A stretch of DNA of 44,329 nt from Streptomyces sp. SM1 (GTDB lineage Bacteria > Actinomycetota > Actinomycetes > Streptomycetales > Streptomycetaceae). Below, piece by piece: positions 1-39,565 of this stretch (within the stretch, counting starts at the first letter, position 1; the number at the start of each line of letters is the position of its first letter). Position numbers and translations under genes: made by a program. The stretch is from contig NZ_NEUB01000802.1 of NCBI RefSeq assembly GCF_002910825.1, positions 1 to 44,329 of the forward strand, read 5' to 3'. The notes beneath the pieces are model-generated. The model ran no database searches. It was given only the letters and a program-made list of their open reading frames with translations, and had not been told where the DNA came from.

Positions 1-56
1 TAATGGTGGAGTCGGGTATTGGAACTCACCGAATGCCTAGCCCTCACGGGCTGAGA

Positions 57-536
57 TCACGTGTAGAAGAAGAAGCGGTCGAACCAGCTCCTGGCGTGAG
101 AGCGGAGCTCCAACGCGCCGTCGTAGTCGGCCCAAGTCAAGTGTTCGGGGACGGTGACGTATCCGAGTTCGCTGAGTATCCCGATGAGACGGCTGAGGTC
201 GGTGGAATCGAGCAGGTAACTGGTCTCCTCCTCGTCGTAGCTCATGGGGTTGCCGAGAGTGACGATAGCCAGATCACCGAAGTTGCTGACGATTACCGTG
301 ATGAAGTCGGCACTCGCTGTGGCCGCGACGGGGATAGTGATCCTTCCGTGGTAGCTGGCCTCCTGAACGTCCCGTTCGACAGTGCAGGTGCAGGCGAACT
401 CCCTGTCGATGTCGGCAGCAAGCTTGTTGAACCGCGTTCGGGTAGCAGATCGGTCGAAGTTGCGCGGGAACTCCGCGTCTCCGGAGGTGTCGAGCTTCCT
501 CAGGAGGGTCCAAAGGTGCTGCTGGTCGGTGGTCAT
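57..536 (-). CDS. Hypothetical protein, last gene of recombinase operon
   Basis: This encodes a 159-aa protein of unknown function. I chose the ATG at 536 because it overlaps the stop of the upstream zinc-ribbon gene as ATGA, the pattern of translational coupling; an in-frame start at 626 would lie inside that gene. The protein is soluble and acidic, with no signal peptide or membrane segment. The middle (about residues 55-100) is rich in beta-strand-like sequence and the C-terminus is aromatic (WFDRFFFYT). I recognise no family. Its place at the end of the recombinase operon suggests it belongs to the element, either as an accessory transposition factor or as the first cargo gene. Confidence 0.75.
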   Translation of the reverse strand: MTTDQQHLWTLLRKLDTSGDAEFPRNFDRSATRTRFNKLAADIDREFACTCTVERDVQEASYHGRITIPVAATASADFITVIVSNFGDLAIVTLGNPMSYDEEETSYLLDSTDLSRLIGILSELGYVTVPEHLTWADYDGALELRSHARSWFDRFFFYT

Positions 537-2974
537 CGTCCGTTCCTGATCGGGTCGGGTTGGCTGTTCCGGCGGCTGACCTCGGCTGCGTAGGCGCCCC
601 AGTCTCCGGCGGCGGCTCGTTGCCATTTGACGGCGACGGTGATGTCGATGCCGAGAGTGCGGGCGAGGACCGCGGCGGGCAGCTCGGTGGCGAGTTGGAA
701 CAGGGCAGTTGAGCGGGTCTCGGCGAGCCGGATGCCGAGTTTGCGGAGTCGTTCGCCCATGGCCCAGACGCTGATCGGGCGCCCGGGCTGACCGCCGGGG
801 AAGAGCCAGGGGGAATCCGTCCGGGCGAGAACGGCATGGCTGCGGCGGACCGCGACCTGGTGGAGGGCGAGTTCAGCGACGGGTGCGGGCAGCTCGACGG
901 GGACGGCGCCGAGGCGGAGATGGACGGCTCCGTCGGTCTCCTCGATGTGGTCGACGGTGAGACGGGAGATCGCCGCGGGCCACTGGGCATAGAGGAGCAA
1001 CAGCAGGCCGGCGAATCGGTCTTCGGACTTGAGGGTGTCGTCGTGCAGCAGACGGCGAGCGGTGGCCCAGCGGGCCTCGTCGTCCATTGCCTGGGACGGG
1101 CCGTTCCATCGGACGGCCGGGAAGCTGAGATCGCGGGCGATCTTCTGGGCGAGAGCCCAGCGCACGAAGTGGCCCGCCTCCCGGCGGTGACGGACATCGT
1201 CGCTGGTCATCCAGCGTTCGAGGTCGGCCTGACGGCAGGTCACAAGTGTCAGGCCCTGGACCTCGATCCAGTTGAGGAGATGGATGGCTGCCCGCAGATG
1301 CTGGCGGACGACGGTGAGCTGGGTGTGCGTGATGTCGTTGCCGCGGCTGCGGCGGCGGAGCCGTCGCAGGAGATGCCAGGTCGCGTACCGGTGCAGGATT
1401 TTCCGTCCCTCGGCAGTGGCGTGGGAGGTGACGAGATCGTTCACGTGCCGTTCCAGGCGGACCATCTGCTCGTCCCGCTGGGGCAGCGTGCCGGTGGCCA
1501 CGAGCACGCTGCGGAGGTGCTCGACGACCTTGCCCGCCGGGAGTTCGTCCAGGGCCTCGTGTGTCAGGGGCCGATGGCCGGAGCCGAGATCGGACAGGAC
1601 GGTGGAGACGATGCCACCGGCCAGCCAGCGCATCGCCGTGCCGACCCGTTCCGTCTTGGCCAGGGCGTCGTTGAGGGCCTGCAGCTTCGGGGGTATGGAG
1701 CCCGAGTCGTCGGCGAGAAGCTCGTGGAGCCGCTGCTTGAGAATGCAACGACGACATGGCCCCGGTGAACGCAGCCGCTCGGCCTGCCCGCAGGTGGGGC
1801 AGGGGTGCCAGAGCTCGGCGTCCGGCTTGGTGCAGGGGCCGCAGACCGGAGCGTCCGCGGTGCCGGAATGGATGCCACGGACGCGTCCGCAGGTGGTGCA
1901 GCGGGCTTGGCGCTGGAAGCAGCCGCGACAGCGGGGCAGGCCGGTGAGCTTCGAGTGGTTGCCGGGAGCGGTGAGGCCGCAGATGGAGCAGACCAGGACC
2001 GGCAGGGGGCAGCAGTTGGGGCAGAGCGGGCCCTCGGCGGTGCGCGTGTGTACTCGCCGCCGTTCCTTGCATCCGATGCAGACCTCGGCGTTCGCAGGGT
2101 CGGTGACCAGGCAGTTCGGACACAGCGGTCGCCCTTGCTCGTCGCGGGTGGCCGGCTCGCGTCGGGCTCCGCAGCGTACGCATTCTTCGATGCGGGACTT
2201 GGCGATGCAGTTGCGGCAGACCCGCTGCCCGTCGAGCGGCTTGTCGATGCGAACCACTCGGTGGCAACGAGGGCAGGACGGCCGGACGATCCCGGCGACA
2301 CCGGCCTCGTGCAGAAGGTCGATGAACCTCAAGATGGCGCGGTGCGGGGCGATATGGGCCTCGCCGGTCAGCAGGCGGGGGTTCTCCTCCAGGGCCCAGA
2401 CCACTCGCTGGCGATAGTGGGGACGGTGGGGCGCCGACCGGCGCAGAGCCTCGGCGACCACGTCGGGGTCGGCGCCCGGGGCGATCGTGTTGATCACCGT
2501 GTGGACGACCGTGGCCGGGTCGCGGTCATCGTGGTCGGGACACATCGAACAGCGGGGCAGGCCCTTGCGGTCCCGGAAGGTGACGCGCCGGGTGTTGCCG
2601 CAGGCGGCGCACTCGGTGGTCTCCTTGATGCAGACCGAGCAGTACCAGTCCTGGCCCTGCCGCTGGAGGCTTCGCAGCCCCTTCCCACAGTCCGCGCAGA
2701 CCGGTGGCGAGATCGCCGAGGCGCCGGCCCTGCGAAGGGCGATGAGGAGATCGCCGACGGCCCGTGGCGCCGGGGACCGGCCATCGGTCAGAGCGGCGGG
2801 GCGCGTCGCCAGGAACTTGGCCAGGTTCCGTGACTTCGCGCGGCCGCCCGCGATCGCGGTGACCACGGTCCGGATGGTCTCGGAGCCGAGTTCGCTCTCG
2901 GCATCCGCGACCAGGTCCGTGATCAGGCCGATCGGGTCCGTGACGGAGCGGTCGAGAGAGCCGGTGGTAGTCAC
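533..2974 (-). CDS. Zinc-ribbon array fused to degenerate tyrosine-recombinase-like domain
   Basis: This 813-aa protein starts at an ATG overlapping the stop of the HTH gene (ATGA). Residues about 93-400 hold 16 CxxC motifs (CADC, CSVC, CAAC, CSMC, CPRC, CRNC and ten more), enough for about eight zinc ribbons. Residues about 455-800 are helical and look like a tyrosine-recombinase core-binding plus catalytic domain: an arginine in SRLTVDHI fits box I, and a segment with LFPGG and a following helix pair fits box II. The HxxR motif and nucleophilic tyrosine are absent there (the tyrosine position reads VKWQRAA), so it is probably not an active recombinase. I infer a structural or DNA-targeting subunit for the three active recombinases. 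The fold call for the C-terminal half is by pattern only. Confidence 0.75.
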   Translation of the reverse strand: MTTTGSLDRSVTDPIGLITDLVADAESELGSETIRTVVTAIAGGRAKSRNLAKFLATRPAALTDGRSPAPRAVGDLLIALRRAGASAISPPVCADCGKGLRSLQRQGQDWYCSVCIKETTECAACGNTRRVTFRDRKGLPRCSMCPDHDDRDPATVVHTVINTIAPGADPDVVAEALRRSAPHRPHYRQRVVWALEENPRLLTGEAHIAPHRAILRFIDLLHEAGVAGIVRPSCPRCHRVVRIDKPLDGQRVCRNCIAKSRIEECVRCGARREPATRDEQGRPLCPNCLVTDPANAEVCIGCKERRRVHTRTAEGPLCPNCCPLPVLVCSICGLTAPGNHSKLTGLPRCRGCFQRQARCTTCGRVRGIHSGTADAPVCGPCTKPDAELWHPCPTCGQAERLRSPGPCRRCILKQRLHELLADDSGSIPPKLQALNDALAKTERVGTAMRWLAGGIVSTVLSDLGSGHRPLTHEALDELPAGKVVEHLRSVLVATGTLPQRDEQMVRLERHVNDLVTSHATAEGRKILHRYATWHLLRRLRRRSRGNDITHTQLTVVRQHLRAAIHLLNWIEVQGLTLVTCRQADLERWMTSDDVRHRREAGHFVRWALAQKIARDLSFPAVRWNGPSQAMDDEARWATARRLLHDDTLKSEDRFAGLLLLLYAQWPAAISRLTVDHIEETDGAVHLRLGAVPVELPAPVAELALHQVAVRRSHAVLARTDSPWLFPGGQPGRPISVWAMGERLRKLGIRLAETRSTALFQLATELPAAVLARTLGIDITVAVKWQRAAAGDWGAYAAEVSRRNSQPDPIRNGR

Positions 2975-3321
2975 GGCCGGTCAATACCCTTGATCCGGGC
3001 TCGCTTTGGCCGCAGTCCGCCGAGCCCTTCCGTGTCGGGGGCCGTGCCGCCGGCGGCGGCCTTCTTCGGCTTCTTCACGGCTCCGGCCACCGCTATGGGC
3101 TCGATGAGGTCGTCCATGGTGCAGTCCAGGATGTCGAGCAGGGCCATGAGGATCTTCAGGCTCAGTCGCTCCGGTCGCTCGACGACGAGCCGGTAGACCT
3201 GGCTGGAGGACAGCGTGATACCGCGCTCGGCGAGCGGCGGGATGAGGTCGGTGGTGGAGAACATCCCGCGGTCGGCCATGACTTTGCGCAGGTGCCAGTG
3301 GTAATCAAGCTTGGCGGCCAT
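2971..3321 (-). CDS. Small Cro/C1-type HTH protein
   Basis: This encodes a 116-aa protein. Residues about 20-75 contain a helix-turn-helix of the Cro/C1 class (TTDLIPPLAERG, then SSSQVYRLV, then LKILMALLDILD and a short DDLI turn). The tail after residue 80 is basic and Ala/Lys/Arg-rich (KKPKKAAAGG), which could bind DNA non-specifically. The start lies 16 bp after the third recombinase, and the stop overlaps the zinc-ribbon gene as ATGA, so it sits in the middle of the operon. It may repress the operon or act as a recombination directionality factor, as small HTH proteins in integrative elements do. The function is inferred from fold and context. Confidence 0.85.
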   Translation of the reverse strand: MAAKLDYHWHLRKVMADRGMFSTTDLIPPLAERGITLSSSQVYRLVVERPERLSLKILMALLDILDCTMDDLIEPIAVAGAVKKPKKAAAGGTAPDTEGLGGLRPKRARIKGIDRP

Positions 3322-3337
3322 CGCCGGGTCCCTCCTG

Positions 3338-4441
3338 TCAGACCCCGGTGAACGCCGGGGCCAGTGCCTTGTGCAGGGAAGTGTTCATGAAGTCGTCGCT
3401 GACGTGCGTGTAGATGGCCAGGGAGCTGTCGCTCTCGTGGCCGACCTGCTGCTGGATGAAGCGGCGGTCCACCCCGTCCTCGGTCAGATGCGTGACGTAC
3501 GAATGCCGCAAGGAGTGCGGGACCAGCTCTTTCGGCAGGCCCAGGGCGTCGCGGTATGCCTCGAACCGGTCGTTGATCGAGCCGGGCCGCAGGCGTCCAC
3601 CACGTTCGGTGATCCACAGAGCGGGGTGGTCGGGGAATCCGAAGCGCGGACGGACGTTCTCGACGTAGTCGGCAACTGCCTCGACGGCCCAGTCCATCAC
3701 CGACAAGACGTTCCGGCGCCGGGGCGGCTGGCCCTTCTTGGCCTTGCCGTAGCGGACGTTGAGCGTGCCGTACCGGCCGAACTGCCGGGCCTGCGGGTTG
3801 CGCCCGAAGTCGACCACGTCGAGCTTGGAGGTCTCGGTCCGGCGAAGTCCCCACCCGTAGATCACCTTGAAGAGGGTGGCGTCACGGTAGGCCGCCAGGG
3901 CGCCCTTGCGTCTCGCCCGCAGGGCTCGTTCGACTTGGTCGTCGGCGTAGTCGAGGAAGAGCTGCAGCTGTTCCCGGGTGAAGGGCTTGGCCTCCGGGTC
4001 GCCCTCGTAATCGTTGAGGTGGGCAATGGTGTTCCACTCGTGACAGACCGCCACCGGGAAGGTGCCGAAGGCTTCCTCGCAGGCAGGGCCCCATCCGTAG
4101 CGGCTATCGATGAGGAACTCGCTGAACAGCCGCACGGTGCCCTGGTAGCTGCGGATCGTCGACGGTGCCAGGTGCTTCTCACTGGTCAATGAGACCGACC
4201 ACTCGTCCACGTGGGCCGGCGTCCACTGCCACGGGTAGTCGTTCGCGAACTCCAGGAACCGGCGTATGAGTCGTTCCCGCGGATCGATCGTGTCGTCCTT
4301 CAACCCCCGCGACTTCTGCTGAGCACGCCAGCCCCTCAGCATCGCGTCGAACATCGCGTCCTCAGGACGCAGTTGGACCACCCCGGAGACGAGCTCCAGT
4401 TGAGCCGCCCCGGCCAGGGCCACCTTGCGCTGATGCACCAC
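3338..4441 (-). CDS. Tyrosine recombinase (third of the trio)
   Basis: This 367-aa site-specific recombinase has an intact active site. Residues about 30-145 form the SAM-like core-binding domain. The catalytic domain shows R200 (GLRRTE), a basic beta-hairpin with K235/K236, H309-x-x-R312 (HSLR), H335 (GHES) and nucleophile Y344 (AIYTHV). The start is the first of two GTG codons at 4441, preceded by a possible Shine-Dalgarno AAGGGA that lies in a perfect hairpin arm. The family cuts and rejoins DNA through a 3'-phosphotyrosine. It is 65 bp downstream of the 703-aa recombinase and 16 bp upstream of the HTH gene. It probably acts with the other two recombinases on the element ends. Confidence 0.93.
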   Translation of the reverse strand: MVHQRKVALAGAAQLELVSGVVQLRPEDAMFDAMLRGWRAQQKSRGLKDDTIDPRERLIRRFLEFANDYPWQWTPAHVDEWSVSLTSEKHLAPSTIRSYQGTVRLFSEFLIDSRYGWGPACEEAFGTFPVAVCHEWNTIAHLNDYEGDPEAKPFTREQLQLFLDYADDQVERALRARRKGALAAYRDATLFKVIYGWGLRRTETSKLDVVDFGRNPQARQFGRYGTLNVRYGKAKKGQPPRRRNVLSVMDWAVEAVADYVENVRPRFGFPDHPALWITERGGRLRPGSINDRFEAYRDALGLPKELVPHSLRHSYVTHLTEDGVDRRFIQQQVGHESDSSLAIYTHVSDDFMNTSLHKALAPAFTGV

Positions 4442-4449
4442 TCCAGACC

Positions 4450-4486
4450 ATCCCTTCTGGAGGGAGGATCATGCATCAGAAGGGAT
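4450..4486 (-). promoter_or_regulatory. Inverted repeat that could mask the RBS of the third recombinase
   Basis: The 65-bp gap between two recombinase genes holds a perfect 10-bp inverted repeat: ATCCCTTCTG at 4450-4459 and CAGAAGGGAT at 4477-4486, with a 17-nt spacer. A second dyad overlaps it: CTGATGCA at 4430-4437 and TGCATCAG at 4472-4479. In the minus-strand transcript the purine-rich AAGGGA that could serve as Shine-Dalgarno for the gene starting at 4441 is in one hairpin arm and its complement is in the other. The pair could act as a translational switch or as an operator for the HTH protein encoded downstream. Confidence 0.55.
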
Positions 4487-4506
4487 ACGATCGGCAACAT
4501 GCCTGG

Positions 4507-6618
4507 TCAGGCAGCTAGGTCGTAGTAGCCTCGGAGTCCTTCAAGCTCTCGCCGTGACCTGGCGACCTGCGACTTCTCGCCCGTCTGATGCAATTCCCGA
4601 GGGTTGTAGTAACCCATCGTGGTGTCCACCGAACGGTGATCCATCAGATCGCGCAGTACGTCGGGGCGCACCCCCGCGTCGGCGTGGCGTTGTGCGTAGG
4701 AGTGCCGGAACGCATACGGAAAGACTCCCGCGGTGTCGTAGGGCATCGGGGCGCCGTCGCGATCGAGGTTCCCTGAGTGGAGGGGCGGCAGGGCGTCGAC
4801 CCAGGCTCGGATCGCCCTGGCCAAGTTGCCGGATACCAGGTGCGGCACGCCGGTATCGGCGGAGATCGCCGGAAACAGATAGGTACGGCTGCGGGGCGGC
4901 AGGTCCAGGTGCTCGCGCCGCCGGATCCAGCGCTGGATCGCACTGGCGGTGTCGGTGGTGATCGGCAGGCGGCGGCGGTAGCGCTTCTTCTTGTGGTTGT
5001 CCCAGATCAGCGTGACGTCGTCGCCGTCGATCTCCAGGTAGCTGGCCTTGAGCGAGCACACCTCGATGGGGCGGCGCCCGGTGTCACGTAGCACCACGTA
5101 AGCGGTCTGGAACATCAGTTGCACATCGGCGGGTGCCATCTGGCCGTAAGGGAAGCCGACACCGAGAGTGTTCACGTGCGCGTCGAGCTGAGCGATGACC
5201 GGCTCAGGGATGGCCTTGCCGGCCTCCCCGTCGTCGCGTTCCTCGGTGGGGATCATGTGCGACTGGTGGCGGGCGAAACCGCCGGCCAACTCCTCCAGCA
5301 GCCCGGCCTTGCGGCCGAAGTCCAGCAGCTGGAAGAACTTCGTCAAAAGGTCACGGCGGACGGTGAAGGCGTAGCGTTCGCCGTCCGGTTTGCGGGCGTC
5401 CTTGAATGCATCGACCACCGCATCCATGTCGGCGAACGTCAGACCGGCCGGGTCATGCCCGCCGCCCGGGCGCGTGTGCAGCGCCACCGAGGCACGCAGG
5501 CAAGAGTCCAGGGTGCGGCGGAGCACAAACGTGTCCGGGTCCATGGCCCGTGCCCACTCCAGCGTCGCGTGGCGCAGCCACGGCTGGGCGATCTTCGTGA
5601 AGTCGATCGTGCCCTGGTTGTAGCGGCGTCCGGAGCGGCTGTAGCGCGAGGCCAGCTTGGCGCTGACTGCGTCCCACACCTCGCCGTCGCGCGGGCCGTG
5701 CCCCAGGGCCTGCTCGTATCCGGCCCTTGTGTGCCGGAAGAACTCCTTGACGTGCGCACGGGTGTTGTTCGACGCCCGCTCCACCAGTACCAAAGCGTCC
5801 GCCCGGTCGATAAGCAGCAGACTCTCGATGCCTACAAGCGTGCGCGCCATGTGGCGTACGCACTGTGTGTCCAGCTTCGCGCCGCGCGCATCACGCTGCT
5901 GCAGCGCGTACAAGAACTCCAAGCGCACCAGCTCGCCGAGAGGGCGCAGCGAGAACTGATGCTGCAGCAAGAACGGGATCTGTCCCTCCGCCCAGAACGC
6001 TGCGTCCGACCCCGCCTCCCCACGCCGGGCGGCCGCCGCCCGAGCCCGGTGATGGTACGCGCACAGAATCCGACGCGGCGCCGCCGCACTGCCGCACCCC
6101 GGCACCGCGCAGGCAGGGACCTGGTCCTCGATAGGCACCACGGACTCCGCCGCCCAAGCTGTGAGCTCCGCACCGGTGAAGGTCAGCTGCCCGGAGTGCT
6201 TGCGCCAGCCCTGGTAGTGGACGATGCACAGCCCCCGCGAGGAGGCCGGGTAGCCGCAACGGCGCCCCGCGCGCTGAACCGCGCAGCGAGCCGGATCCTG
6301 CCCGCCGGCGACGGCCAAACGCGCCGGAACATAGACGGCGGCGAACTCCTCAGCCGACTGGCCGCCGGCCTTCATCTGCTGGGCGCACCGAAAGCAGAAG
6401 CTGTTGGTGTGCACCACCGTGGAACAGGCCAGGGTCCGGCAGGAGTAGGCGCGGGTGCGCGGGTTGTCCACATCGCCGGTGAACAGCAGCGACTGCCCGT
6501 CCCACTCCCCAGGCCGCCAGTCGGCCTCAACGGCGCTGCGCAGCCAGCGTTTCCACGCCTGCAGATCGATGCCCTCCGGGCCGCTCGCGACCGGCTCCGG
6601 GACGACGGCCAGCGTCAT
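4507..6618 (-). CDS. Large tyrosine recombinase with N-terminal cysteine clusters (TnpB-like)
   Basis: This 703-aa protein has an N-terminal region of Cys/His clusters (C60, C65, C75, C78; C112, C121, C131, H134; C170, C175, C186, H189), then a long helical region, then a recombinase catalytic domain. Visible active-site residues are R516 (TGRRPIE), lysines 543-545, R638 in YAFRHSY, H661 (MDHRS) and Y670 or Y671 (MGYYNP). The first histidine of HxxR is replaced by Y635. Size and order, directly after a ~390-aa recombinase with ATGA overlap at 6615-6618, match TnpB of Tn554-type elements, as known from that family. It is probably the second subunit of the transposition complex. Confidence 0.88.
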   Translation of the reverse strand: MTLAVVPEPVASGPEGIDLQAWKRWLRSAVEADWRPGEWDGQSLLFTGDVDNPRTRAYSCRTLACSTVVHTNSFCFRCAQQMKAGGQSAEEFAAVYVPARLAVAGGQDPARCAVQRAGRRCGYPASSRGLCIVHYQGWRKHSGQLTFTGAELTAWAAESVVPIEDQVPACAVPGCGSAAAPRRILCAYHHRARAAAARRGEAGSDAAFWAEGQIPFLLQHQFSLRPLGELVRLEFLYALQQRDARGAKLDTQCVRHMARTLVGIESLLLIDRADALVLVERASNNTRAHVKEFFRHTRAGYEQALGHGPRDGEVWDAVSAKLASRYSRSGRRYNQGTIDFTKIAQPWLRHATLEWARAMDPDTFVLRRTLDSCLRASVALHTRPGGGHDPAGLTFADMDAVVDAFKDARKPDGERYAFTVRRDLLTKFFQLLDFGRKAGLLEELAGGFARHQSHMIPTEERDDGEAGKAIPEPVIAQLDAHVNTLGVGFPYGQMAPADVQLMFQTAYVVLRDTGRRPIEVCSLKASYLEIDGDDVTLIWDNHKKKRYRRRLPITTDTASAIQRWIRRREHLDLPPRSRTYLFPAISADTGVPHLVSGNLARAIRAWVDALPPLHSGNLDRDGAPMPYDTAGVFPYAFRHSYAQRHADAGVRPDVLRDLMDHRSVDTTMGYYNPRELHQTGEKSQVARSRRELEGLRGYYDLAA

Positions 6619-7781
6619 GCCTGAACCTTCCGGCCGGCTGCGACCCGCGTCACGGCGTCCCGAAGCTCCTCATCACCGGCGTGCAGATACACATCCAGTG
6701 ACGACGCCGAGGCGTGGCCGAGGAGCCGCTGCACCACATCGCGGTCGACGCCCGCGCGGATCCAGCGGGTGGCCGCGGAATGCCGCAACATGTGCGGGCG
6801 GGCCTCGAACCCCACCCGCCGCGCGAGCCGGTCCAACATGTCCTTCGCGGCCACATACGTCATCGGCCGGCCCCGCCGCCCCGCATACAGGTTCACGAAC
6901 ACGCTGTCGCTGTCCACCTCACCCGGCAACTGCGCGGCCCGCTCATGCAGGTACTCCGCGTACCCGTCGACCAGGTCCTCGGTCACCGGGATCCACCGCG
7001 AGAAACGGGACTTGGCCAGCGCCCCGTTGGTATTCAGCCTGCGCCGAACATGCACGTGCGGCCCCGCCACCTGGCAGCCCAGCATCGAGGAGTTCGACAG
7101 CAAGTGCATGTCCTGCCGGTGCAGCCCCAACGCCTCACCGATCCGCATCCCGGTGCAGGCCAGCAGCGACACCAAGAAGCGGTCCCGGCCCCGAACGGCG
7201 GCCGCCCGGAGCTGTTGGATCTGCTCATCCGACAGCCACTGCGGGCCTTCCACCGCTGCGGCATACTTCAGCATCCGTGCCCGGACGTTGCGGAACTGGC
7301 CCTGTTCCCCCGGGTCGAATCCAGACGGCAGATACACGAGATACCGCGGCTCCGTCAACGACGCCGCCACCTCGACCGGCACCCAGCCCTGCCGGCTCCC
7401 GAACCGCAGGAACTCGCACACCGCAGTCATCACCGCGTTCGCCGTCGCCTCGGTACGAAACCGGGGCACTCCGCCGCCGTCACGCCCACGCGTCGGCAGC
7501 GGCTCCGCCACCAGCCATCGCAGGAACCGAGCCAGATCAAGCAGCCCCGGGCGGGCCCAGTCCACACCACTCGCCTCGCACCACGACAGGTAAACCGCCA
7601 CACGGCCGGCGTACATCCGCTCGGTGTTCGACGACCGGCCCCGCGCCCGCAGCCCCGCCAAGAACGCACACGACTCCTCGTGCAGCGAGAACCCACCATC
7701 CACAACAACCCAGGCTATGGACCCATCCACCGGCCTCAGCGCCCTCTCGGCGCGATACCCACCCATCATGATCACGAACAT
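6615..7781 (-). CDS. Tyrosine recombinase (TnpA-like), first gene of the element operon
   Basis: This 388-aa recombinase has all catalytic residues: R213 (TGMRIGE), K257 in the beta-hairpin, H330-x-x-R333 (HMLR), H356 (LLGHAS) and Y365 (DVYLHAG). Residues about 35-145 form the core-binding domain. The start is the ATG at 7781; a second in-frame ATG follows a few codons later (MFVIMM), so the true start may be slightly downstream. It is the first gene after the element's right end, about 90 bp from the junction with the ABC exporter gene, and overlaps the next recombinase as ATGA. By position and size it matches TnpA of Tn554-type transposons. Confidence 0.93.
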   Translation of the reverse strand: MFVIMMGGYRAERALRPVDGSIAWVVVDGGFSLHEESCAFLAGLRARGRSSNTERMYAGRVAVYLSWCEASGVDWARPGLLDLARFLRWLVAEPLPTRGRDGGGVPRFRTEATANAVMTAVCEFLRFGSRQGWVPVEVAASLTEPRYLVYLPSGFDPGEQGQFRNVRARMLKYAAAVEGPQWLSDEQIQQLRAAAVRGRDRFLVSLLACTGMRIGEALGLHRQDMHLLSNSSMLGCQVAGPHVHVRRRLNTNGALAKSRFSRWIPVTEDLVDGYAEYLHERAAQLPGEVDSDSVFVNLYAGRRGRPMTYVAAKDMLDRLARRVGFEARPHMLRHSAATRWIRAGVDRDVVQRLLGHASASSLDVYLHAGDEELRDAVTRVAAGRKVQA

Positions 7782-7877
7782 ACCTAACGTCCCTACAACT
7801 CTCGGATACTTCTCACGAGGCAGACGGTCAGGGTCAAGGACTCATGTCCCTGCCGGACTGCAGGAGCTATAGATATC
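7782..7877. other. Right terminus of the transposon and junction with the exporter gene
   Basis: This 96-bp stretch lies between the first recombinase start and the exporter codons for LD. It should contain the element end, recombinase-binding sites and the operon promoter. It has a small dyad GGACTCATGTCC (7838-7849) inside a looser CAGGG...CCCTG arrangement, and a closely spaced ggtcagggtca repeat. The junction itself is at or next to the palindromic hexamer GATATC (7872-7877). I see no long terminal inverted repeat, as expected for tyrosine-recombinase transposons. Confidence 0.5.
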
Positions 7878-9563
7878 GAGGGCCGCGGTCGGTTCGTCCA
7901 GGACGAGCAGTCCGGCCGGCCGATGGAAGGCGCGGGCGAGCGCGATCCTCTGCCACTGTCCGCCGGACAGTTCCTGCCCACCCCACCACTCCTTGGCCAG
8001 CAGGGTGTTCAGCCCGCTGCGCAACCCGTCGATGACCTCGTCGGCGCCTGCGGCTTGCGCCGCGGCGAGCACTGCGGCGTCCCCTTGCTCGGTGGCCTGG
8101 CCGAGGGTGATGTTCTCTCTCGCCGACAGAGGCCAGCACGCGTAGGACTGCGGTACGACGGCGACACGCTTCCAGGTGGCATGCGCGTCCAACTCCCGGG
8201 TGTCGGTTCCGTCCCAGGAGACGGCTCCCTGATCGGGCAGGTACAGAGCCGACAGGATCTTGCTCAGGGTGGTCTTGCCGGAGCCGTTCTCGCCCACCAG
8301 CGCGACGACTTCGCCGCGCCGGACCTCCAAGGAGACGTCGTCGAGGGCGGGCCGGTCGGCGCTGGGGTACTGGAAGGTGATGTTCTCGGCGCGTACGACG
8401 GTGGGGGCGGCCGGCGTCTGAGAGCCGCGGTCGATGCGATGCCCGCCGGCTTCGTCGATGAAGTCCGCCCAGTCGTCCAAGTACATTCCGGTGCGGAAGA
8501 GTTGGGCCCCGTAGCCGACGATCCCGTCCAGCCCCGCGCTGACCCGGCCCAGTGCGAGGAACGCGGTGCCGACGGCGGCGACCGAGATCTGCCCGGCGAA
8601 CACCAGTAGCGCTAGGGCCACCCACACCACCGCGTGGGCGAGTCCTCCCGCAACCCCGCCCAGCAGGGAGATCCTGGCCGAGCGCCAGGTGGCCTGGTCG
8701 GTGGTCCTGTCGATCCGCGCCCCGGCCGTGCGGTACTTGTCGAGCAGGAACGACGCCATGGTGCCGGAGCGGACCTGGTCGGCGGTCTGCTTGTCGACCA
8801 TGTACCAGCGCAGCATGCCCAGCAGCCGCCGGTCTTTCGTCGTGGCGAGCGAGGCGATGTAGCTGATGCGCGCCGCCCGCACGCTGGCCACGCCCTTCGG
8901 CAGGGCCGCCAAGAGGAGCAGAGGCAGAAGGATCGGGTGCACGGCGGTCAGGACAAACGCCGAGGCGATCAGCGATGCCGATGCGGCGAGGATGTACTGG
9001 GCTTCGGTGAGGAGGTCCCTGGAGACCTCCACTCCGCGGTCGGCCGCGTCCCAACGGTCGTTGTATCCGGGGTTGTCGTACGCGGCGAGTTCCGCCTTGG
9101 TCGCCGCGTCGAGGAGCTCGAGTTCGGCCTCCCGGGCGATACGCGGGGCCAGCCGGGCCGACAGCGCGGTGGAGGCGATGCCCAGCAGGGCGCGCAGACC
9201 GATGGCCCCCGACAGAACGGCAAGGGAAGGTACGGCGGAGCGGAGCTGATCGCCGCTGATGTGCTGCGAGGCGATCAGCGGCTTGATAACCCCGGTGGTG
9301 GCCATCAGCCCGAACGCTTCCAGCACCCCCGAGAGGAGCTGCACGCCCAGCAGGGCGATGACCGCAGCGCGGTCGACCTGCCAGCCCAGTGCGAGGGACC
9401 GGCGGATCAGTTGGGGCAGGCGTCGGGCCATCGCACGGGTCGTGATCGCGTTGGCGGCCTCGATACGGCGGTCGCCGGGGATGACGAACTTCAGTTCCTC
9501 ATCCGAGACCTCCGCCTCGCCGGTCGGCGCGGTTGTCGCGGTGGGCTTCGGGATGGTTGTCAT
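7842..9563 (-). pseudogene. ABC exporter (TMD-NBD), 3' end removed by transposon insertion
   Basis: This reads as a fused transmembrane/ATPase half-exporter of 573 aa. An N-terminal six-helix membrane domain spans about residues 60-370, followed by the ATPase domain with Walker A GENGSGKTT, Q-loop region VVPQSYACW, signature LSGGQWQRIALARA and Walker B LLVLDEPTAALD. After the D-loop the sequence turns into IYSSCSPAGT and stops. Normal family members continue for about 60-70 residues with the H-loop switch histidine, which is missing, so ATP hydrolysis should be lost. The start ATG at 9563 overlaps the preceding micro-ORF as ATGA. Its last ten codons come from the transposon. It was probably the exporter for whatever the upstream kinases and micro-ORFs make. 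Confidence 0.88.
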
Positions 9564-26910: not shown

Positions 26911-27620
26911 CGCGTCACGCACCACGAATGACGGAGTCCGCCGAGGCCCTGTCGCACAGGCAGCAGCTCGGCGACGGGTTCCTCCAGGACTTCCGTGCGG
27001 ACGGCTACGCGTTCTTATCCCAGAAGATCGCGGGAGAGTCCCTCGAAGCCCTCCGCACGGAGGCTGATGCCCTGATCCGGCGCTTCACCCAGGACGGGTT
27101 CCGCTCGGACGACTACTGGCACTTCACCCCCGCGGGCACGGACGCGCCCGTTCTCTACCGCATCCACAACCTGGAGAACCAGGGCTCCCCGGCGGCGACA
27201 CGCCTCTACGCCGACGACAGCCCTCTGCACCCGATGGCCGTCGCCATCCTCGGCGGGCCCGTACGCGCCACCGCCTGCGCCATGATCGTCAAGCTGCCGG
27301 GAGTGGCCGCTCCAGTGCCCTGGCATCGTGACCGGACCAATGTTCCTCCGCACACCGTGTGCAACCTCAGCGTCTTCCTCGACGACTCCGACGTGGGCAA
27401 CGGATGCCTTGAGTTCGTGCCGGGCTCCCACCTGACGCCCGACGCGGAAGAGGCCGAGGCGCTCCAGGTGCGGGGTCCGGTCCGCGCCCTCCCGCTCTCG
27501 GCCGGTGACATCGCCGTACACGACGTACGTATCGCCCACGCCTCGCGCCGCAACACCTCCCCGAGGATCCGCCGCAGCATCGTCATCGAGTTCGCCCCCG
27601 CCGACCGGGAGCTGCCGTGA
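26907..27620 (+). CDS. Phytanoyl-CoA-hydroxylase-family Fe(II)/2-oxoglutarate oxygenase
   Basis: This encodes 237 aa from ATG 26907 (ATGA overlap). The iron-binding facial triad is visible: H140-x-D142 in PWHRDRTN and a distal H211 in IAHASRRN, followed by a 2-oxoglutarate-binding Arg around 220-223 (PRIRRS). LEFVPGSHL is typical of the PhyH family. Members hydroxylate, halogenate or cyclise small molecules, and in orthosomycin and hygromycin B pathways they form orthoester bonds between sugars. Being embedded in a glycosyltransferase operon, it probably oxidises a sugar or oligosaccharide. The exact reaction is not shown by sequence. Confidence 0.9.
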
Positions 27621-28660
27621 CCATCCCCAACCCCACTGGCGAGAGTGCCAGGGTGCGGGTGGCCACCATCACGGTGGGCACCAACGAGTCCCGTTGGCTG
27701 GAGCCTTGCTTCGCCACGCTCCTGGACAGCGACGTCCCCGGGATCGACCTGACGGTCTGGTACGTGGACAACGACTCCTACGACGGCAGCACGGCCTTCG
27801 TAAAGGACCGTTTTCCCGAGGTGCGGGTCATCCAGAACGAGAGCAACGTCGGCTTCGCCCGCGCCAACAACATCGGCATGCGCGCGGCCCTCGCCGACGG
27901 CGCCGACTACGTCTTCCTCGTCAACCCGGACACCCAGACCCCGAAGTCGCTGGTGCGCGACCTGGCCGAGTTCATGGAGACCTGGACCGACTACGGCGTG
28001 GTCGGCCCCATGCAGTACGAGTACGACGAGTCGGGCAGCACCGCTTTGGGCGCGTACAACGACTGGTCGAAGTCCGCTCTGCGCTGGGGCGAGCAGCACG
28101 CCTTCGCCGGCGACTGGCCGAACCACCCCTCGCCGGCCAGCCCACCCGAAGGCCGGGCCCCGAACACCCTGGAGCACGCGTACGTCCAGGGCTCCGCCTT
28201 CTTCGTACGTGCCGCGCTGCTGCGCACCGTCGGACTCCTCGACGAGGTCTTCCACACGTACTACGAGGAGACCGACCTGTGCCGCCGCACCCGCTGGGCC
28301 GGATGGCGCGTCGCGCTCCTGCTCGACGTCGGCATACAGCACTTCGGCGGTGGGGGAACGGCTGGCAGCAGCTATCGGCGCGTCCAGATGCGCCGCAACC
28401 GCTACTACTACCTCCTCACCGACATCGACTGGCGCCCGCTGCCCATGCTGAGCCTGGCGTCCCGGTGGCTGAGGGACGATCTGCGCGGACGTGGCGTGGG
28501 CGGAGTGACCACCTGGTGGCGCGGGACCTGGGAAACCGCGAAAGCCGTGTGCTGGCTCGTGCGCCGCGCACCTCTGATCCGGGCCCGGCGACGTGCCCAC
28601 CGCCGGCTCGGCTCGCCGACGGGCAGCCACGCTCAACCGCAGGCAAGGGGTGCGCAATGA
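27617..28660 (+). CDS. GT2-family glycosyltransferase
   Basis: This encodes 347 aa from GTG 27617 (GTGA overlap). The GT-A fold core shows VWYVDNDSYDGS, NVGFARANNIG (nucleotide pocket) and a DxD-like VNPDTQTP, then YYEETDLCRRTRWAG containing the acceptor-side ED motif. This pattern resembles rhamnosyl-type GT2 enzymes. A basic, moderately hydrophobic C-terminal tail (WLVRRAPLIRARRRAHRR) might associate with the membrane surface. It acts in the cytoplasm on a nucleotide-sugar donor, possibly the pentose made by the first gene. Confidence 0.92.
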   Translation: MTIPNPTGESARVRVATITVGTNESRWLEPCFATLLDSDVPGIDLTVWYVDNDSYDGSTAFVKDRFPEVRVIQNESNVGFARANNIGMRAALADGADYVFLVNPDTQTPKSLVRDLAEFMETWTDYGVVGPMQYEYDESGSTALGAYNDWSKSALRWGEQHAFAGDWPNHPSPASPPEGRAPNTLEHAYVQGSAFFVRAALLRTVGLLDEVFHTYYEETDLCRRTRWAGWRVALLLDVGIQHFGGGGTAGSSYRRVQMRRNRYYYLLTDIDWRPLPMLSLASRWLRDDLRGRGVGGVTTWWRGTWETAKAVCWLVRRAPLIRARRRAHRRLGSPTGSHAQPQARGAQ

Positions 28661-29712
28661 CCACACCCCGGATTCTGTTCGCCGGCGTCTTCCACTGGAA
28701 CGCGGGCTCCAGCCACATGATCGCCGAGTACGCCCGGGTCGCCTCGACATCCGGATGCGAGGTCGGCGTCTCAAGCCAACTGTCGCGCCTGGACGGCACG
28801 GTGAACGGCCACCTGCCTCTCGTGGACGACATCAGCTGGGCCACCCACCTGGTCCTCGTCTTCGAGAGCAGGCAGTTCCTCTCGCCCGAGCAGCGTGAAC
28901 TCTGCGAGGCCGTGCCGCTGCAGCGGCGCATCATCATCGATCCCGACGGCCACTGGGGCCCGTACGTCACCGCCGGCGCGGACGACAACGCGGGTGCCGA
29001 CACCATCGAGTCCTGGCACAAGCTGTATGCCGACCTCAGCGATCTGATCCTGCAGCCGCGCATGAACGAACGCCTCCCCGACGGGGCCGAGTTCTTCAGC
29101 TACTTCGGAATGCCGGACATCCACCGGCTCGCCAGCGACCTCCCGCACCCGCGGGCACTGCCGTACGAGCTGCAGTACGTCGGCGCGAACTGGTGGCGCT
29201 GGAGCGAGATGACCAGCCTCATCCGGGCCGCAGCCGACGCCCAGCCGCCGATCCGACGCATCCGCGTGTGCGGACGCTGGTGGACCGGCGACCCGCACCC
29301 CGACCACCAGACGGCCACCACCAACGTGCCCGGCTGGATGCGGGATCACGGTGTCGAGGTGGCGCCACCCGTTCCGTTCGGGCACGTGGTCTCCACCATG
29401 TCCCAGGCGGCGATCACGCCGGTACTGGCTCGTCCGCTGCTCTCGCGGATGGAGCTGCTGACCCCCCGCATGTTCGAAACCCTCGCCTCGGGCAGCATCC
29501 CCGCGCTCTGGCCGGACCTGGGCTACCTGTCCGCGCTCTACGGCGACGACGTGGAGCTCTTTCTGCTCGACGACGATCCGGCCCACAGCCTCGCCCGGAT
29601 GATCCGTGAGCCGATCCGGTACCGCGAGCGGCTGGCGACCATCCAGCGCCGAGTACACGAACGCTTCAACTACCGCGCGGTTCTGGCGGAACTCATCCGG
29701 TTCACCCGATGA
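28657..29712 (+). CDS. CgeB/GT-B-like glycosyltransferase
   Basis: This encodes 351 aa from ATG 28657 (ATGA overlap). It begins with a Rossmann-like ILFAGVFHWNAGS and ends with a C-terminal lobe containing MFETLASGSIPALWP, a motif like that of CgeB/YkvP-type glycosyltransferases (MFEALACG). The mid-region has ELQYVGANWWRW, followed by RIRVCGRWWTGD. The donor and acceptor are unknown. It overlaps the pyruvyltransferase gene start. Assignment as a glycosyltransferase rests on the C-terminal motif and context. Confidence 0.75.
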   Translation: MTTPRILFAGVFHWNAGSSHMIAEYARVASTSGCEVGVSSQLSRLDGTVNGHLPLVDDISWATHLVLVFESRQFLSPEQRELCEAVPLQRRIIIDPDGHWGPYVTAGADDNAGADTIESWHKLYADLSDLILQPRMNERLPDGAEFFSYFGMPDIHRLASDLPHPRALPYELQYVGANWWRWSEMTSLIRAAADAQPPIRRIRVCGRWWTGDPHPDHQTATTNVPGWMRDHGVEVAPPVPFGHVVSTMSQAAITPVLARPLLSRMELLTPRMFETLASGSIPALWPDLGYLSALYGDDVELFLLDDDPAHSLARMIREPIRYRERLATIQRRVHERFNYRAVLAELIRFTR

Positions 29713-29729
29713 TCCCTGAGAGGTCTGCT

Positions 29730-30941
29730 GTGTCCAACGTCCTGATCACCGGCATCACCAGCTGTGAGAGTCGCGGCGTCGAGGCCCTGGCCCGCTCCAT
29801 CATCGAGCAGCTGAACACCGAAGGCCCCGGGGGAGGCGACAACGTCACCGTTCTCACCCAGACCCCGGTGCTCGACGCGGAATCCCTCGCCCCCACCAGC
29901 GCCCGTTGCGTGGCCGACCCGTTCGTCGTCTCCCGCTCCTGGCAGCAGATGCGCCCCCAGGAGAGCCCCGCCGAACTGGCCGAACGCCGCGAACAGCTCC
30001 TCGCCCAAACCGATCTGGTCATCGCGACCGGGGGCGACCTGCATACCTCGGACTACGGGGTCTCCACGCCGTACCTCCGGGTCCTCACCGCCGCGCAACA
30101 GCGGGACATCCCGACGGCCATGATCGGCCAGTCCGTCGGCCCCTTCGACGACCCGGCCGATGCCGAGGCATGGCTCGCGGTCGCCACCCGGTGCGATCTC
30201 CTCACCGTCCGGGAGAGCGTCTCCCTCGACTACCTCGTGGGCAAGCTCGGCCTTCCCGAACACCGTGTGCGGCTGTCCTCCGACCCCGCCTTCCTGCTGC
30301 CAGCCGCTACCGGCGAGCGAACAGCGGCCGTGCTCGGGCCTCTGGGGCTCGCCCCCGAAGACCCCTACCTCTGCCTCGCCCCCAGCCAGGGCATCACCCG
30401 CTTCAGCACCCTGGAGGAGTCCCAGCACGCGGCAGCACTGACGCGACTCGCCACCTCCCTCGTCCGCACCCGGAGGATGCCGGTCGTCCTCATCCCGCAC
30501 TGCCACGACTCCCGCCCGCACAACGACGACCGGATCCTCGCCGCCCGAATCGCCGAAGCGGCCGACATGCCCGAGGTCATGGCGCTGCCGGGCGCGCTAA
30601 CGGCATCCGACTACAAGGGCGTGCTGTCACAGGCCGAACTCGTCATCTCCGAGCGCCTGCACGCCGCGATCGGCGCACTGTCCGGCGGCGCCCCGGCAAT
30701 TGCGATCGGCCACTCGCACAAGTTCAACGGGGTGCTCGCCGAAACCTACGGTCACACGGTCGACGTCGACGGCATCCACGCGGACGTCCGCGCTTTCACC
30801 CAGGACACCACGGTCATCGGCCGGCTCATCAACGACACCGACGCGACCGCACTGCGCACCACCCTGCGGCAGCGGCTCCCGCTGATCACGGACCGCGCCC
30901 GCAGCGACTTCGCTCAGATCAACGAGCTCCTCGGAGCCTGA
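29730..30941 (+). CDS. Polysaccharide pyruvyltransferase-family protein
   Basis: This encodes about 403 aa. I prefer GTG 29730 (GAGAGG 6 nt upstream), giving SNVLITGITSCESRG; ATG 29709, which overlaps the previous stop, is the alternative. Family features are NVLITGI at the N-terminus, SSDPAFLLP, the LAPSQGITRF strand and the C-terminal SERLHAAIGALSGGAPAIAI with HKFNG. The family transfers pyruvate from PEP to form ketals on sugars (CsaB, WcaK), though some members act as sulfite reductase-like partners or glycosyltransferase-like enzymes. Together with the other genes it suggests pyruvylation or a related transfer on a glycan. Confidence 0.85.
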   Translation: MSNVLITGITSCESRGVEALARSIIEQLNTEGPGGGDNVTVLTQTPVLDAESLAPTSARCVADPFVVSRSWQQMRPQESPAELAERREQLLAQTDLVIATGGDLHTSDYGVSTPYLRVLTAAQQRDIPTAMIGQSVGPFDDPADAEAWLAVATRCDLLTVRESVSLDYLVGKLGLPEHRVRLSSDPAFLLPAATGERTAAVLGPLGLAPEDPYLCLAPSQGITRFSTLEESQHAAALTRLATSLVRTRRMPVVLIPHCHDSRPHNDDRILAARIAEAADMPEVMALPGALTASDYKGVLSQAELVISERLHAAIGALSGGAPAIAIGHSHKFNGVLAETYGHTVDVDGIHADVRAFTQDTTVIGRLINDTDATALRTTLRQRLPLITDRARSDFAQINELLGA

Positions 30942-37295: not shown

Positions 37296-37955
37296 ATGAA
37301 ACCCGATCACTGGCCAGCGGCGTTCACCGCCCGGATCGCCCAAGAGATGCGCGAGGCGCGCAAGGCCGCCGGCCTCACCATGGGCGAGGTCGCCCAGGGG
37401 TGTGCCGACCGCGGACTGACGGAAATCACCGAGCAGTCCGTGAAGAACCTGGAGTCCGGCCGTAAGGCGAGCATGACCATCGCCGACTTCGTCGTGCTGG
37501 CTGACGTCCTTAGCGTTCCGCCCGTGACCCTCCTCTTTCCGCTCGGTTCCTCCGCCACGGTGGAGGTCCTGCCGGGACGGGAGGTGTCCACCTGGGACGC
37601 GCTCGCGTGGTTTACCGGCGAGACACCCATGGACCAGCCCGCCCCCGAGGGCACCGCCCGCGATGTCCTCGACGTCTTCCGCAGCCACGGTGATCTGGTG
37701 GCTGCGGCGGCAGTATCCACTGCCCTGGCCAAGGAGCGACGGCGTGCGGCGAGCACCACCTTGGACCGGGCTCGCAGAGCCACGCTCCTGCAGCGCGCCG
37801 AGGGTTACGAGGAGCACGCCTTCGAGGACTGCCAGGAGCTGCGTGCCTTCCGAGCCCGGATGCGTGCGCGATCCCTCGTGCCTCCGGCCCTTCCCGACGA
37901 GCTTGCCTTCGTCGACCAGCCCGAAATAGAGACTCAGGTAGAGGACAGCGAGTGA
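37296..37955 (+). CDS. XRE-family regulator of the integrative module
   Basis: This encodes 219 aa from ATG 37296. Residues about 15-72 are a Cro/C1 HTH (AQEMREARKAAGLTMGEVAQ, then ITEQSVKNLESGRKASMTIA). The following region, including WDALAWFTGETP and the helical ATLLQRAEGYEEHAFEDCQE, is of unknown function. There is no Shine-Dalgarno, consistent with a leaderless transcript. The operator overlapping its promoter suggests it represses itself and the downstream integrase (GTGA overlap), as prophage-type or AICE-type repressors do. Confidence 0.88.
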   Translation: MKPDHWPAAFTARIAQEMREARKAAGLTMGEVAQGCADRGLTEITEQSVKNLESGRKASMTIADFVVLADVLSVPPVTLLFPLGSSATVEVLPGREVSTWDALAWFTGETPMDQPAPEGTARDVLDVFRSHGDLVAAAAVSTALAKERRRAASTTLDRARRATLLQRAEGYEEHAFEDCQELRAFRARMRARSLVPPALPDELAFVDQPEIETQVEDSE

Positions 37956-39565
37956 AGAACGGCACCATCACCCGGCGGTGCCGGTGCACTGATCCCGCGA
38001 CCGGCAAGGACTACGGGGCCTCATGCCCCAAGCTCAAGTCGCGGCGACACGGCGTCTGGAGTGTGTTCCAGGAGCTGGATCCTGCTCAGGACGGCCGCCG
38101 TCGCCGGTTCCGTCGCGGCGGCTTCGAAAGCTCGGCCAAGGCCCAGGAAGAGCTGGACAAGGTCCGCGCTCTCATGGCCATACCCGAGGAGGACGACGCC
38201 TGGGGCAAGACCCAGATCAGCGACCTCATCGAGAGCTGCCTCAAGGAGAAGGAGCCGCTTCCGGACTACGACGAGACCCGTCGCCGCTTCCAGACCGGGC
38301 AGACCCTCAACTCCAAGACCACCGTCGCCGAGTGGCTCGACACCTGGCTCGCCGGACGCAAACGCCTGCGTCGCGGCGGGGCGGCGCGCTACGAGTGCGA
38401 CATCCGCGTCCATCTCAAGCCGCACCTGGGCCACCTGCGGCTGGACAAGCTCCGCGTGCACCACATCAACACGATGTTCGACGCGATCAACGAGCGCAAC
38501 ATCGAGATCCAGGAGCAGAACGCCCAGCGGCGCGCGGTGCGCGACGAACTCAAGGCGACGCCGTGGAAGGGCGCTGAGAACCGGGCTCGTCGCAAGTGGC
38601 TGCAGGCGCAGCTCGACGCCATGCCACCGTTCCGGCGCATCACCGGCCTCAACACCCAGCCGCATATCCGCGACACCCTGCGGGCCGCGCTGAACGTCGC
38701 TATCGCCCAGCAGGTGATGCCCGCCTTCAACCCGGCCGCCCACGTCGAGTTGCTGCCCGGAACCAAGCCGAAGGCCCTCATCTGGACCGACGAGCGGATC
38801 GCCCACTGGCAGGAGACCGGCGAGAAGCCCTCCCCGGTCATGGTCTGGACACCCGAGCAGACCGGCCAGTTCCTCGACTTCGTCGCCGAGGACCGGCTGT
38901 ATCCGCTGTGGCGGCTCATCGCCTTCCGGGGAACACGACGCGGCGAGGCTTGCGGCGTCCGCTGGGTGGATCACTCGGCCGCCGCGCAGTCCCTGGCCAT
39001 CGCCATCCAACTCGTCCAGGACGGCTGGGAGATCCATGAAGGTGCCCCCAAAACCGACAGCGGCATCCGTCTGATCGCCCTCGACGACGAGACGCATCAG
39101 GTCCTGCTCAGGCACAAGGCCGGCCAGGAGCAGGAACGGGAGGCGTGGGGCGATGGCTGGCAGGACACCGGCCGCATCTTCACCCAGGAGGACGGTTCCC
39201 TTCTCCACCCCGGCAAGGTCTCCGACCTCTTCGAGCGTCTGGTCGCCGCTGCCGGTCTGCCTCCGATACGGCTCCACGACCTGCGCCATGTCTCCGCGAC
39301 GCTCATGCTCGCGGCCGGAGTCGACATCAAGGTCGTCTCCGAGACCCTCGGGCACTCGGACACCCGTATCACCCGCGACATCTACCAGGCTGTCCTGGAC
39401 GACCTCGCCCGCGACGCCGCCGAGAAGGTCGTGCAACTCGTGCCTCGGGCGCGGAAGCCCCTCACAGTGGTCAAGGACACCGAGGCTGCGGCCCCCAGCC
39501 GCAGGCCGAGGATGACTCCGCCCCGGAAGACCAAGAGGGTGTCGACGGAGGAGCGCTCCGCCTGA
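37952..39565 (+). CDS. Tyrosine-type integrase
   Basis: This encodes 537 aa from GTG 37952 (GTGA overlap). The catalytic residues are present: R329 (GTRRGEA), K367, H442-x-x-R445 (HDLRH), H468 (LGHSD) and Y478 (DIYQAV). An N-terminal Cys-rich segment (C10, C12, C25) and an arm/core-binding region precede the catalytic domain, with an insertion of about 90 residues between 180 and 270 that is longer than usual. It is of the kind used by actinomycete integrative elements to insert at tRNA or other attB sites. No attachment site was identified next to it. Confidence 0.93.
   Translation: MKNGTITRRCRCTDPATGKDYGASCPKLKSRRHGVWSVFQELDPAQDGRRRRFRRGGFESSAKAQEELDKVRALMAIPEEDDAWGKTQISDLIESCLKEKEPLPDYDETRRRFQTGQTLNSKTTVAEWLDTWLAGRKRLRRGGAARYECDIRVHLKPHLGHLRLDKLRVHHINTMFDAINERNIEIQEQNAQRRAVRDELKATPWKGAENRARRKWLQAQLDAMPPFRRITGLNTQPHIRDTLRAALNVAIAQQVMPAFNPAAHVELLPGTKPKALIWTDERIAHWQETGEKPSPVMVWTPEQTGQFLDFVAEDRLYPLWRLIAFRGTRRGEACGVRWVDHSAAAQSLAIAIQLVQDGWEIHEGAPKTDSGIRLIALDDETHQVLLRHKAGQEQEREAWGDGWQDTGRIFTQEDGSLLHPGKVSDLFERLVAAAGLPPIRLHDLRHVSATLMLAAGVDIKVVSETLGHSDTRITRDIYQAVLDDLARDAAEKVVQLVPRARKPLTVVKDTEAAAPSRRPRMTPPRKTKRVSTEERSA

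Follow-up and report, generated by a model that had tools for sequence, protein, structure and literature searches.

Which mobile element do the first genes of contig NZ_NEUB01000802.1 of Streptomyces sp. SM1 belong to, and into what has it inserted? The window, i.e. the whole stretch of 44,329 nucleotides analyzed here, begins with six minus-strand open reading frames (ORFs) at 6615-7781, 4507-6618, 3338-4441, 2971-3321, 533-2974 and 57-536, separated by short gaps or overlaps and encoding, in the same order, proteins of 388, 703, 367, 116, 813 and 159 amino acids (aa). A preliminary description had read them as one transposon with three recombinases. The compact layout on a single strand was confirmed, with the Pfam Phage_integrase domain in the three recombinases (E 1e-28, 1.2e-11 and 5.3e-22 for the 388-, 703- and 367-aa proteins) and HTH_26 in a fourth protein. 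The mobile element itself is smaller. It spans 4605 bp, encodes a tyrosine recombinase (rec), a helix-turn-helix protein (HTH), a zinc-ribbon protein (ZnR) and a cargo protein, and interrupts the gene of another recombinase one codon beyond its active-site tyrosine codon. We consider it very probable that rec-HTH-ZnR elements, with or without cargo, reside mostly at this position in diverse recombinase genes, joined there from a circle by their own recombinase without target duplication, at a site picked by ZnR.

The repeated unit and the gene it interrupts

The genome of origin (8.06 Mb in 1057 contigs) was searched with window positions 1-7900. Positions 1-4605 matched, at 100% identity, the ends of contigs C849, C621 and C597 in addition to the window contig. 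Two of these four contigs (the window and C849) continue past the 4605 end and the other two (C621 and C597) past the 1 end; since two contigs run on at each end, the genome contains two identical copies of a 4605-bp unit. Positions 4606-7900 are not repeated; apart from the repeat, the search returned just three matches, all weak and partial. Which contigs face each other across a copy was deduced from comparisons of C-termini and empty sites, not from reads. Sharp element ends are also found in relatives.

The boundary between positions 4605 and 4606 falls within the 703-aa gene, which is a chimera of 671 host recombinase residues and a 32-residue tail encoded by the element: the host part ends in DHRSVDTTMGYY and is followed by NPRELHQTGEKSQVARSRRELEGLRGYYDLAA and a stop codon. 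The natural C-terminus of the host protein, 168 residues starting with KVSLERKRAAV, is found on contig C597 (L010:1647-2153, minus strand), where a DUF6262 gene comes next, in TnpC position. An annotated Streptomyces coelicoflavus plasmid has the same layout, with a recombinase, a 700-aa recombinase carrying the tail, the element and, later, DUF6262. This shared arrangement identifies the two large upstream recombinases as parts of a Tn554-like host element. The second copy cuts a different recombinase gene, which belongs to a sibling element on C849 and C621, at the same place, between GHSHASTTAIYM and GVSNEYRNN.

An expanded Tn554/RIT-like transposon comprising all six genes and three recombinases would agree with their single strand and short spacing, but it is almost certainly not what is seen here. 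Positions 1-4605 alone recur as a unit at four contig junctions, rec-HTH-ZnR stands elsewhere behind many different recombinase genes, and the second own copy is flanked by a sibling element rather than by this TnpA/TnpB pair. The six-gene transposon is ruled out by the repeat boundaries; the chimeric nature of the 703-aa gene and the DUF6262 gene in the TnpC position of the host element also speak against it. Of the single unit first proposed there remains a mobile element that has HTH and zinc-ribbon proteins as partners, the two upstream recombinases having passed to the Tn554-like host.

Ends, spacer and empty sites

The first 16 nt of the element and the 16 nt preceding its last 6 form inverted repeats. 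Over 60 copies, matches between the repeat cores average 8.2 of 10 at a spacer of 6, and 5.25 at most at every other spacer from 0 to 12. The last 6 nt read CCATTA in 43 of the 60, most others being close variants. In copy L097 a left end directly follows a right end, as the joint of a circle would read; a full second copy upstream was not found at this locus.

Two empty sites define the product of insertion. Locus L080 of genome G003 is the empty site of the second own copy: it is identical to the own flanks over 45 + 45 nt, with the element exactly between them and ATG directly joined to GGA; locus L067 (G142) is the empty site of copy L042 (G089). Insertion adds or removes zero bases.

Directly observed are the repeated unit with both ends, the pair of inverted repeats separated by the 6-bp spacer, the target position and these two empty sites; the following pathway would account for them. 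Rec would perform the cuts. The element would circularize, bringing its two ends together around the spacer CCATTA, and would exchange it against 6 bp of target, the tyrosine codon and the next one. The target bases would stay on the left side while CCATTA remains with the element on the right. ZnR, probably a non-catalytic recombinase-fold protein with zinc ribbons, would set the recombinase subfamily that is attacked, and HTH may act as an accessory factor.

Target genes and junction position

The same position recurs in other genomes. Ninety-six left junctions were compared (95 distinct ones plus L119, after removal of repeats, six and then L171, and of nine copies without a left flank). 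Seventy-five lie in recombinase genes at the active-site tyrosine, 69 of them in frame after the codon following it and 6 shifted by 4 nt. The in-frame junctions were called by profile (67) or motif (2) and the shifted ones likewise (5 and 1). L170 (motif LGHAQLETTKAVY, in frame) was moved from the shifted to the in-frame group, L179 (LGHRDVETTKEHY, annotated integrase) was added to the latter and L144 (YLGHREPSSTYWYL) to the former. In all 67 in-frame profile matches the six target bases adjoining the left end read TAY-NNN, the tyrosine codon and its neighbor, and where tyrosine codons occur in tandem (L053, L135, L146, L148) the second one is used. In the shifted group (L124, L129, L134, L144, L156, L183) the joint falls 10 nt after the start of the tyrosine codon, still within recombinase genes.

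The remaining 21 junctions include four ISL3 transposases (two by Pfam, two by resemblance), three 2'-5' RNA ligases with L052 as a possible fourth, two ATP-dependent DNA ligases, one gene that we take by resemblance to encode an IS3-like transposase (L181), and two places adjoining a right end or right-end-like sequence. In these other target classes the junction is again near a TAY codon (2'-5' RNA ligase, L055, L056, L115, L052; DNA ligase, L141, L143; ISL3 transposase, L101, L114, L127, L131; IS3-like transposase, L181). No target class was assigned to 8 of the 96 (L103, L106, L119, L139, L140, L162, L163, L168); L119 has no recombinase frame before its left end.

Recognition of the targets as recombinases was checked in several ways. 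Pfam alone finds PF00589 in 43 of 71 target pieces at E<=1e-3, and in 8 of 10 further pieces at E<=0.01. A local profile recognizes 56 of the 71, partly by construction as it was seeded from 42 of them; on 193 control ORFs from the window it gave one clear match, to a real recombinase. Around the joint, the joined target frames stay open in 58 of 59 cases. A position-weight model of the target DNA (49 of 62 sites) gave high ranks to many recombinase sites and very low ones to several true sites; as recombinase sites were its training set and the loci scanned were rich in recombinases, it supports no inference.

A less biased sample came from 392 genomes of the same genus, searched only for the DNA pattern of the left end. 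The pattern occurs at 30 places in 22 genomes, the own one included, and a control with the reversed pattern gave zero. With the four own contig ends taken as two copies, there are 28 insertions, of which 25 fall within recombinase genes, L165, L167 and L171 being assigned from their motifs and through their identity to L158, L135 and L169; the exceptions are L162, L163 and L168. Among the 15 plasmid matches listed, seven copies were placed: five interrupt recombinase genes in frame, L183 belongs to the shifted class and L181 sits in the IS3-like gene. PF00589 is matched 25 times in the 8.06 Mb of the own genome, four of these matches being the rec of the element; at this density, we estimate the chance of exact placement at about one in several hundred thousand.

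Could the element insert widely, with copies in recombinase genes persisting since these genes sit in dispensable mobile DNA? The targets are indeed genes of mobile-element type, and those outside recombinases include transposases. Survival bias cannot, however, explain one exact codon boundary, with TAY at -6 in 67 of 67 in-frame profile matches, throughout many subfamilies, and we hold it to be highly improbable.

Genes of the element

Gene order behind rec is the same among 85 other copies, with HTH present in 83 and ZnR in 81 (Table 1 for the window copy). The recurrence of the whole block in other genomes, which the preliminary description had proposed as a check, thus holds for rec-HTH-ZnR at many loci and fails for the 57-536 gene, whose relatives occur in only 2 of the 85 (L097, L113). 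This gene is variable cargo. Cargo ranges from 0 to 5 kb, and in nine copies ZnR is followed by no more than 11-44 bp. Ten cargo genes were scanned: Pfam returned assorted single genes, none of a phage or conjugation family, and PADLOC one weak caspase match. Neither the 813-aa ZnR nor the 159-aa cargo protein of the window matches any Pfam or NCBIfam family, and the latter has no match in PADLOC either.

ZnR has cysteine columns that are invariant in an alignment of 31 relatives. Its AlphaFold2 (AF2) model (pLDDT 81.3) gave fold matches headed by tyrosine recombinases. The ZnR profile matches that of the target recombinases (prob 95.3, E 2.3e-8) and does not match the element's own rec (prob 0.1). 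In the profile alignment the catalytic arginine positions are occupied by other residues or a gap, and ZnR is predicted from these comparisons to carry a catalytically dead recombinase fold.

Table 1. Features of the element, its target and its host gene in the window
Feature	Position	Strand	Basis or remark
Mobile element rec-HTH-ZnR-cargo	1..4605	-	100% identical repeat, four contig junctions (two per end); left end = 4605, right end = 1
6-bp spacer kept at right end	1..6	+	CCATTA on element strand
Right inverted-repeat core TCGGGTATTG	12..21	+	
Cargo gene, 159 aa, no family	57..536	-	Content of this position varies between copies
ZnR, 813 aa, candidate target selector	533..2974	-	Many CxxC pairs, residues 93-410; predicted catalytically dead tyrosine-recombinase fold ~520-798
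HTH, Cro/C1-type helix-turn-helix protein, 116 aa	2971..3321	-	PF13443 (HTH_26) E 1.8e-15; in 83/85 other copies
rec, catalytic-type tyrosine recombinase, 367 aa	3338..4441	-	PF00589 E 5.3e-22; PDB relatives XerD/XerA
Element left end, in-frame 32-residue replacement tail of interrupted recombinase	4507..4605	-	
Left inverted-repeat core TCGGGAATTG	4591..4600	-	
Target 6 bp TACTAC	4606..4611	-	Active-site tyrosine codon and next codon of interrupted recombinase
Interrupted host gene, N-terminal 671 residues of Tn554 TnpB-like recombinase	4606..6618	-	PF00589
TnpA-like recombinase of host element, not part of element	6615..7781	-	PF00589 E 1e-28; outside repeat

Selection of the target

Which protein chooses the site? 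Similarity between targets follows ZnR once rec is accounted for (partial correlation 0.312, permutation p 0.0005); for rec given ZnR the value is -0.085 (p 0.97). Restriction to the 58 copies with recombinase targets leaves the ZnR value at 0.317 (p 0.0005). Copies whose rec is ~87-93% identical to that of the window and whose ZnR is only ~48% or ~82% identical have mostly different recombinase subfamilies as targets. Of those copies with non-recombinase targets that entered the comparison, L127/L131, L056 and L055/L115 form separate ZnR clusters, which is not the case for L181. These sequence comparisons make ZnR the likely target selector.

Binding to their own core sites is the normal behavior of tyrosine recombinases, and recognition of the target by the catalytic rec would fit it. 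It would also suit copies L047 and L166, found in the same kind of recombinase despite ZnR proteins of different clusters, and the six junctions at +4 nt, which belong, where rec was compared, to copies with a more divergent rec. Against it stand the contrast between the two partial correlations and the mostly different target subfamilies of copies with similar rec and different ZnR. We judge recognition by rec to be improbable and retain ZnR as the candidate selector.

Fate of the interrupted recombinase

Upon insertion, the host recombinase would lose its natural C-terminus and gain a tail from the element, of 15-45 residues among copies, so that it would be disarmed or at least altered. Phages that insert at the 3' ends of tRNA genes restore their target, and by analogy the element might supply a new C-terminal tail, leaving the host recombinase functional and able to take the element with it. 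The frame continues into the element in 69 of the 96 junctions, and a 32-codon tail is present in 53 of 85 left ends examined. In these 53, picked for an open tail, pN/pS is 0.78 in the reading frame vs 1.02 and 1.05 in the other frames, a weak constraint at the protein level. Several points argue against restoration: conservation is poor over codons 16-32 (pN/pS 0.85), tail length in other copies is anywhere between 15 and 45 residues, six junctions are displaced by 4 nt, and the first 15 codons, although conserved, share their DNA with the inverted repeat, whose function alone could explain them. Restoration is, in our opinion, rather unlikely, and we lean toward the disarming or altering of the host recombinase.

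Distribution of the element

Relatives of rec were detected at E<=1e-60 in 38 of 150 genomes of the same genus, distant siblings and the own genome included. Among named genomes (80 relatives kept of 114) they occur in Streptomyces, Kitasatospora, Actinacidiphila, Actinomadura, Nocardia, Rhodococcus and Kribbella, and further in relatives of Actinoplanes, in Pseudonocardiaceae, in metagenome-assembled genomes (MAGs) of Acidimicrobiaceae and in one Acidobacteria MAG. A match at the DNA level was found in 184 of 72,556 plasmid records, 15 of which cover more than 80% of the query. No match to the element was found among 50,697 phage records; the left-end pattern occurs in five IMG/VR stretches, all of which stayed below threshold when aligned to the element end. 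Nine loci without a left end by alignment thresholds, five of them of intermediate identity (L058, L059, L060, L063, L068) and four others (L136, L138, L160, L161), stand outside all counts.

A sibling family (L064-L081) has a rec ~50% identical, with its own HTH and ZnR-like gene where looked at, and many of its members have a left end with TTGCATC-GATGC. Sibling elements themselves serve as targets (C849/C621, L042, L044). In L062 and L063 the own rec gene matches in separated pieces, suggesting elements within elements. Three contigs (L084, L107, L111) consist of one element only, which is what a circle or the collapse of a multi-copy repeat would give.

Elsewhere in the window, an ABC transporter gene (7842-9563) near the start of the Tn554-like host element ends abruptly right after its Walker B/D-loop motif (DEPTAALD), and a paralogue on contig C621 continues past this break point. 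Like the element inserted in it, the Tn554-like host thus appears to occupy a conserved motif, here that of an ATPase. Another tyrosine recombinase ORF (37952-39565, PF00589 E 5.5e-15) lies at the far end, and adjacent ORFs at 27505-30941 resemble a glycosyltransferase and a polysaccharide pyruvyl transferase.

Comparison with known elements

Members of the Tn554 family are tyrosine-recombinase transposons as well, and the interrupted host element is of this kind. Their adjacent TnpA/TnpB and TnpC-type partner fit the host element and not positions 1-4605, which have no TnpA/TnpB pair. The target of Tn554 is radC, unlike the targets of the element. Tn5053/Tn402 are DDE-type transposons found at resolvase res sites rather than at a coding active site. 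They are described as 'res site hunters' that target the recombination locus of other elements (PMC7765201).

The accessible portion of the RIT report describes tyrosine-recombinase elements of ~3.5 kb, one in a transposase gene and another in radC, with three recombinases bearing possible catalytic motifs where the element here has one catalytic-type recombinase; targeting of recombinase genes was not found in that portion (PMC3414803). GInt elements (ginABCD) are likewise multi-protein, site-specific tyrosine-recombinase elements with variable cargo. According to the available part of their description, they target ABC transporter, ssb and ribonucleotide reductase genes, and some insertions alter the C-terminus of the target gene; as described there, their set of three recombinase-like proteins and a small protein sets the element here apart (PMC5385486).

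The strand-biased circularizing integrative element (SE), with genes intA-tfp-intB-srap, comes close in the sections of its report at hand (PMC10214605). It likewise relies on tyrosine recombinases and has a recombinase-fold partner without catalytic function, imperfect inverted ends spaced by 6 bp, as found here, no net target duplication, and target 6 bp that remain adjoining the left motif (PMC10214605). By the same partial description, SEs have two active recombinases, IntA and IntB, with Tfp and Srap (these two compared by description), in place of one catalytic-type recombinase in a rec-HTH-ZnR core. They carry the 6 bp of their last site as a variable footprint (PMC10214605), whereas CCATTA is nearly constant here (43/60), and the element here is distinguished from them by its occurrence mainly in Actinobacteria and by targets that are mostly recombinase active-site codons.

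SE, GInt, RIT and Tn554 are thus the nearest kinds; SE, RIT and Tn554 each miss at least one tested feature, and GInt is set apart by description. A prophage or an integrative and conjugative element finds no support in the three-gene core, the ten cargo genes with no phage or conjugation family or the 50,697 phage records without a match. Searching titles and the beginnings of abstracts in the open-license PMC literature returned no element targeting recombinase active sites. The transposon type does look undescribed, as had been suggested at the outset.

Biological significance

The targeting habit of this element is unusual: its regular home would be the active site of enzymes on which other mobile elements depend for their movement. 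Parallels may be drawn with inteins and group I introns, which reside in conserved motifs, and with the res-site hunters. Here the target of a tyrosine recombinase may be set by a distinct, non-catalytic protein, a natural example of what genome engineering has long wished for, and the selector role can be tested directly on pairs of existing copies with nearly the same rec, a different ZnR and mostly a different target class. More tentatively, and with slightly less than even confidence, we propose a class of hyperparasitic transposons whose dedicated zinc-ribbon pseudo-recombinase would read the DNA of the best-conserved active-site motif of an entire enzyme family (GH-x4-TT-x2-Y) and thereby hunt and rewrite the C-terminus of the recombinases of competing elements, exchange of the selector redirecting the transposon to other conserved sites such as those of transposases and ligases.
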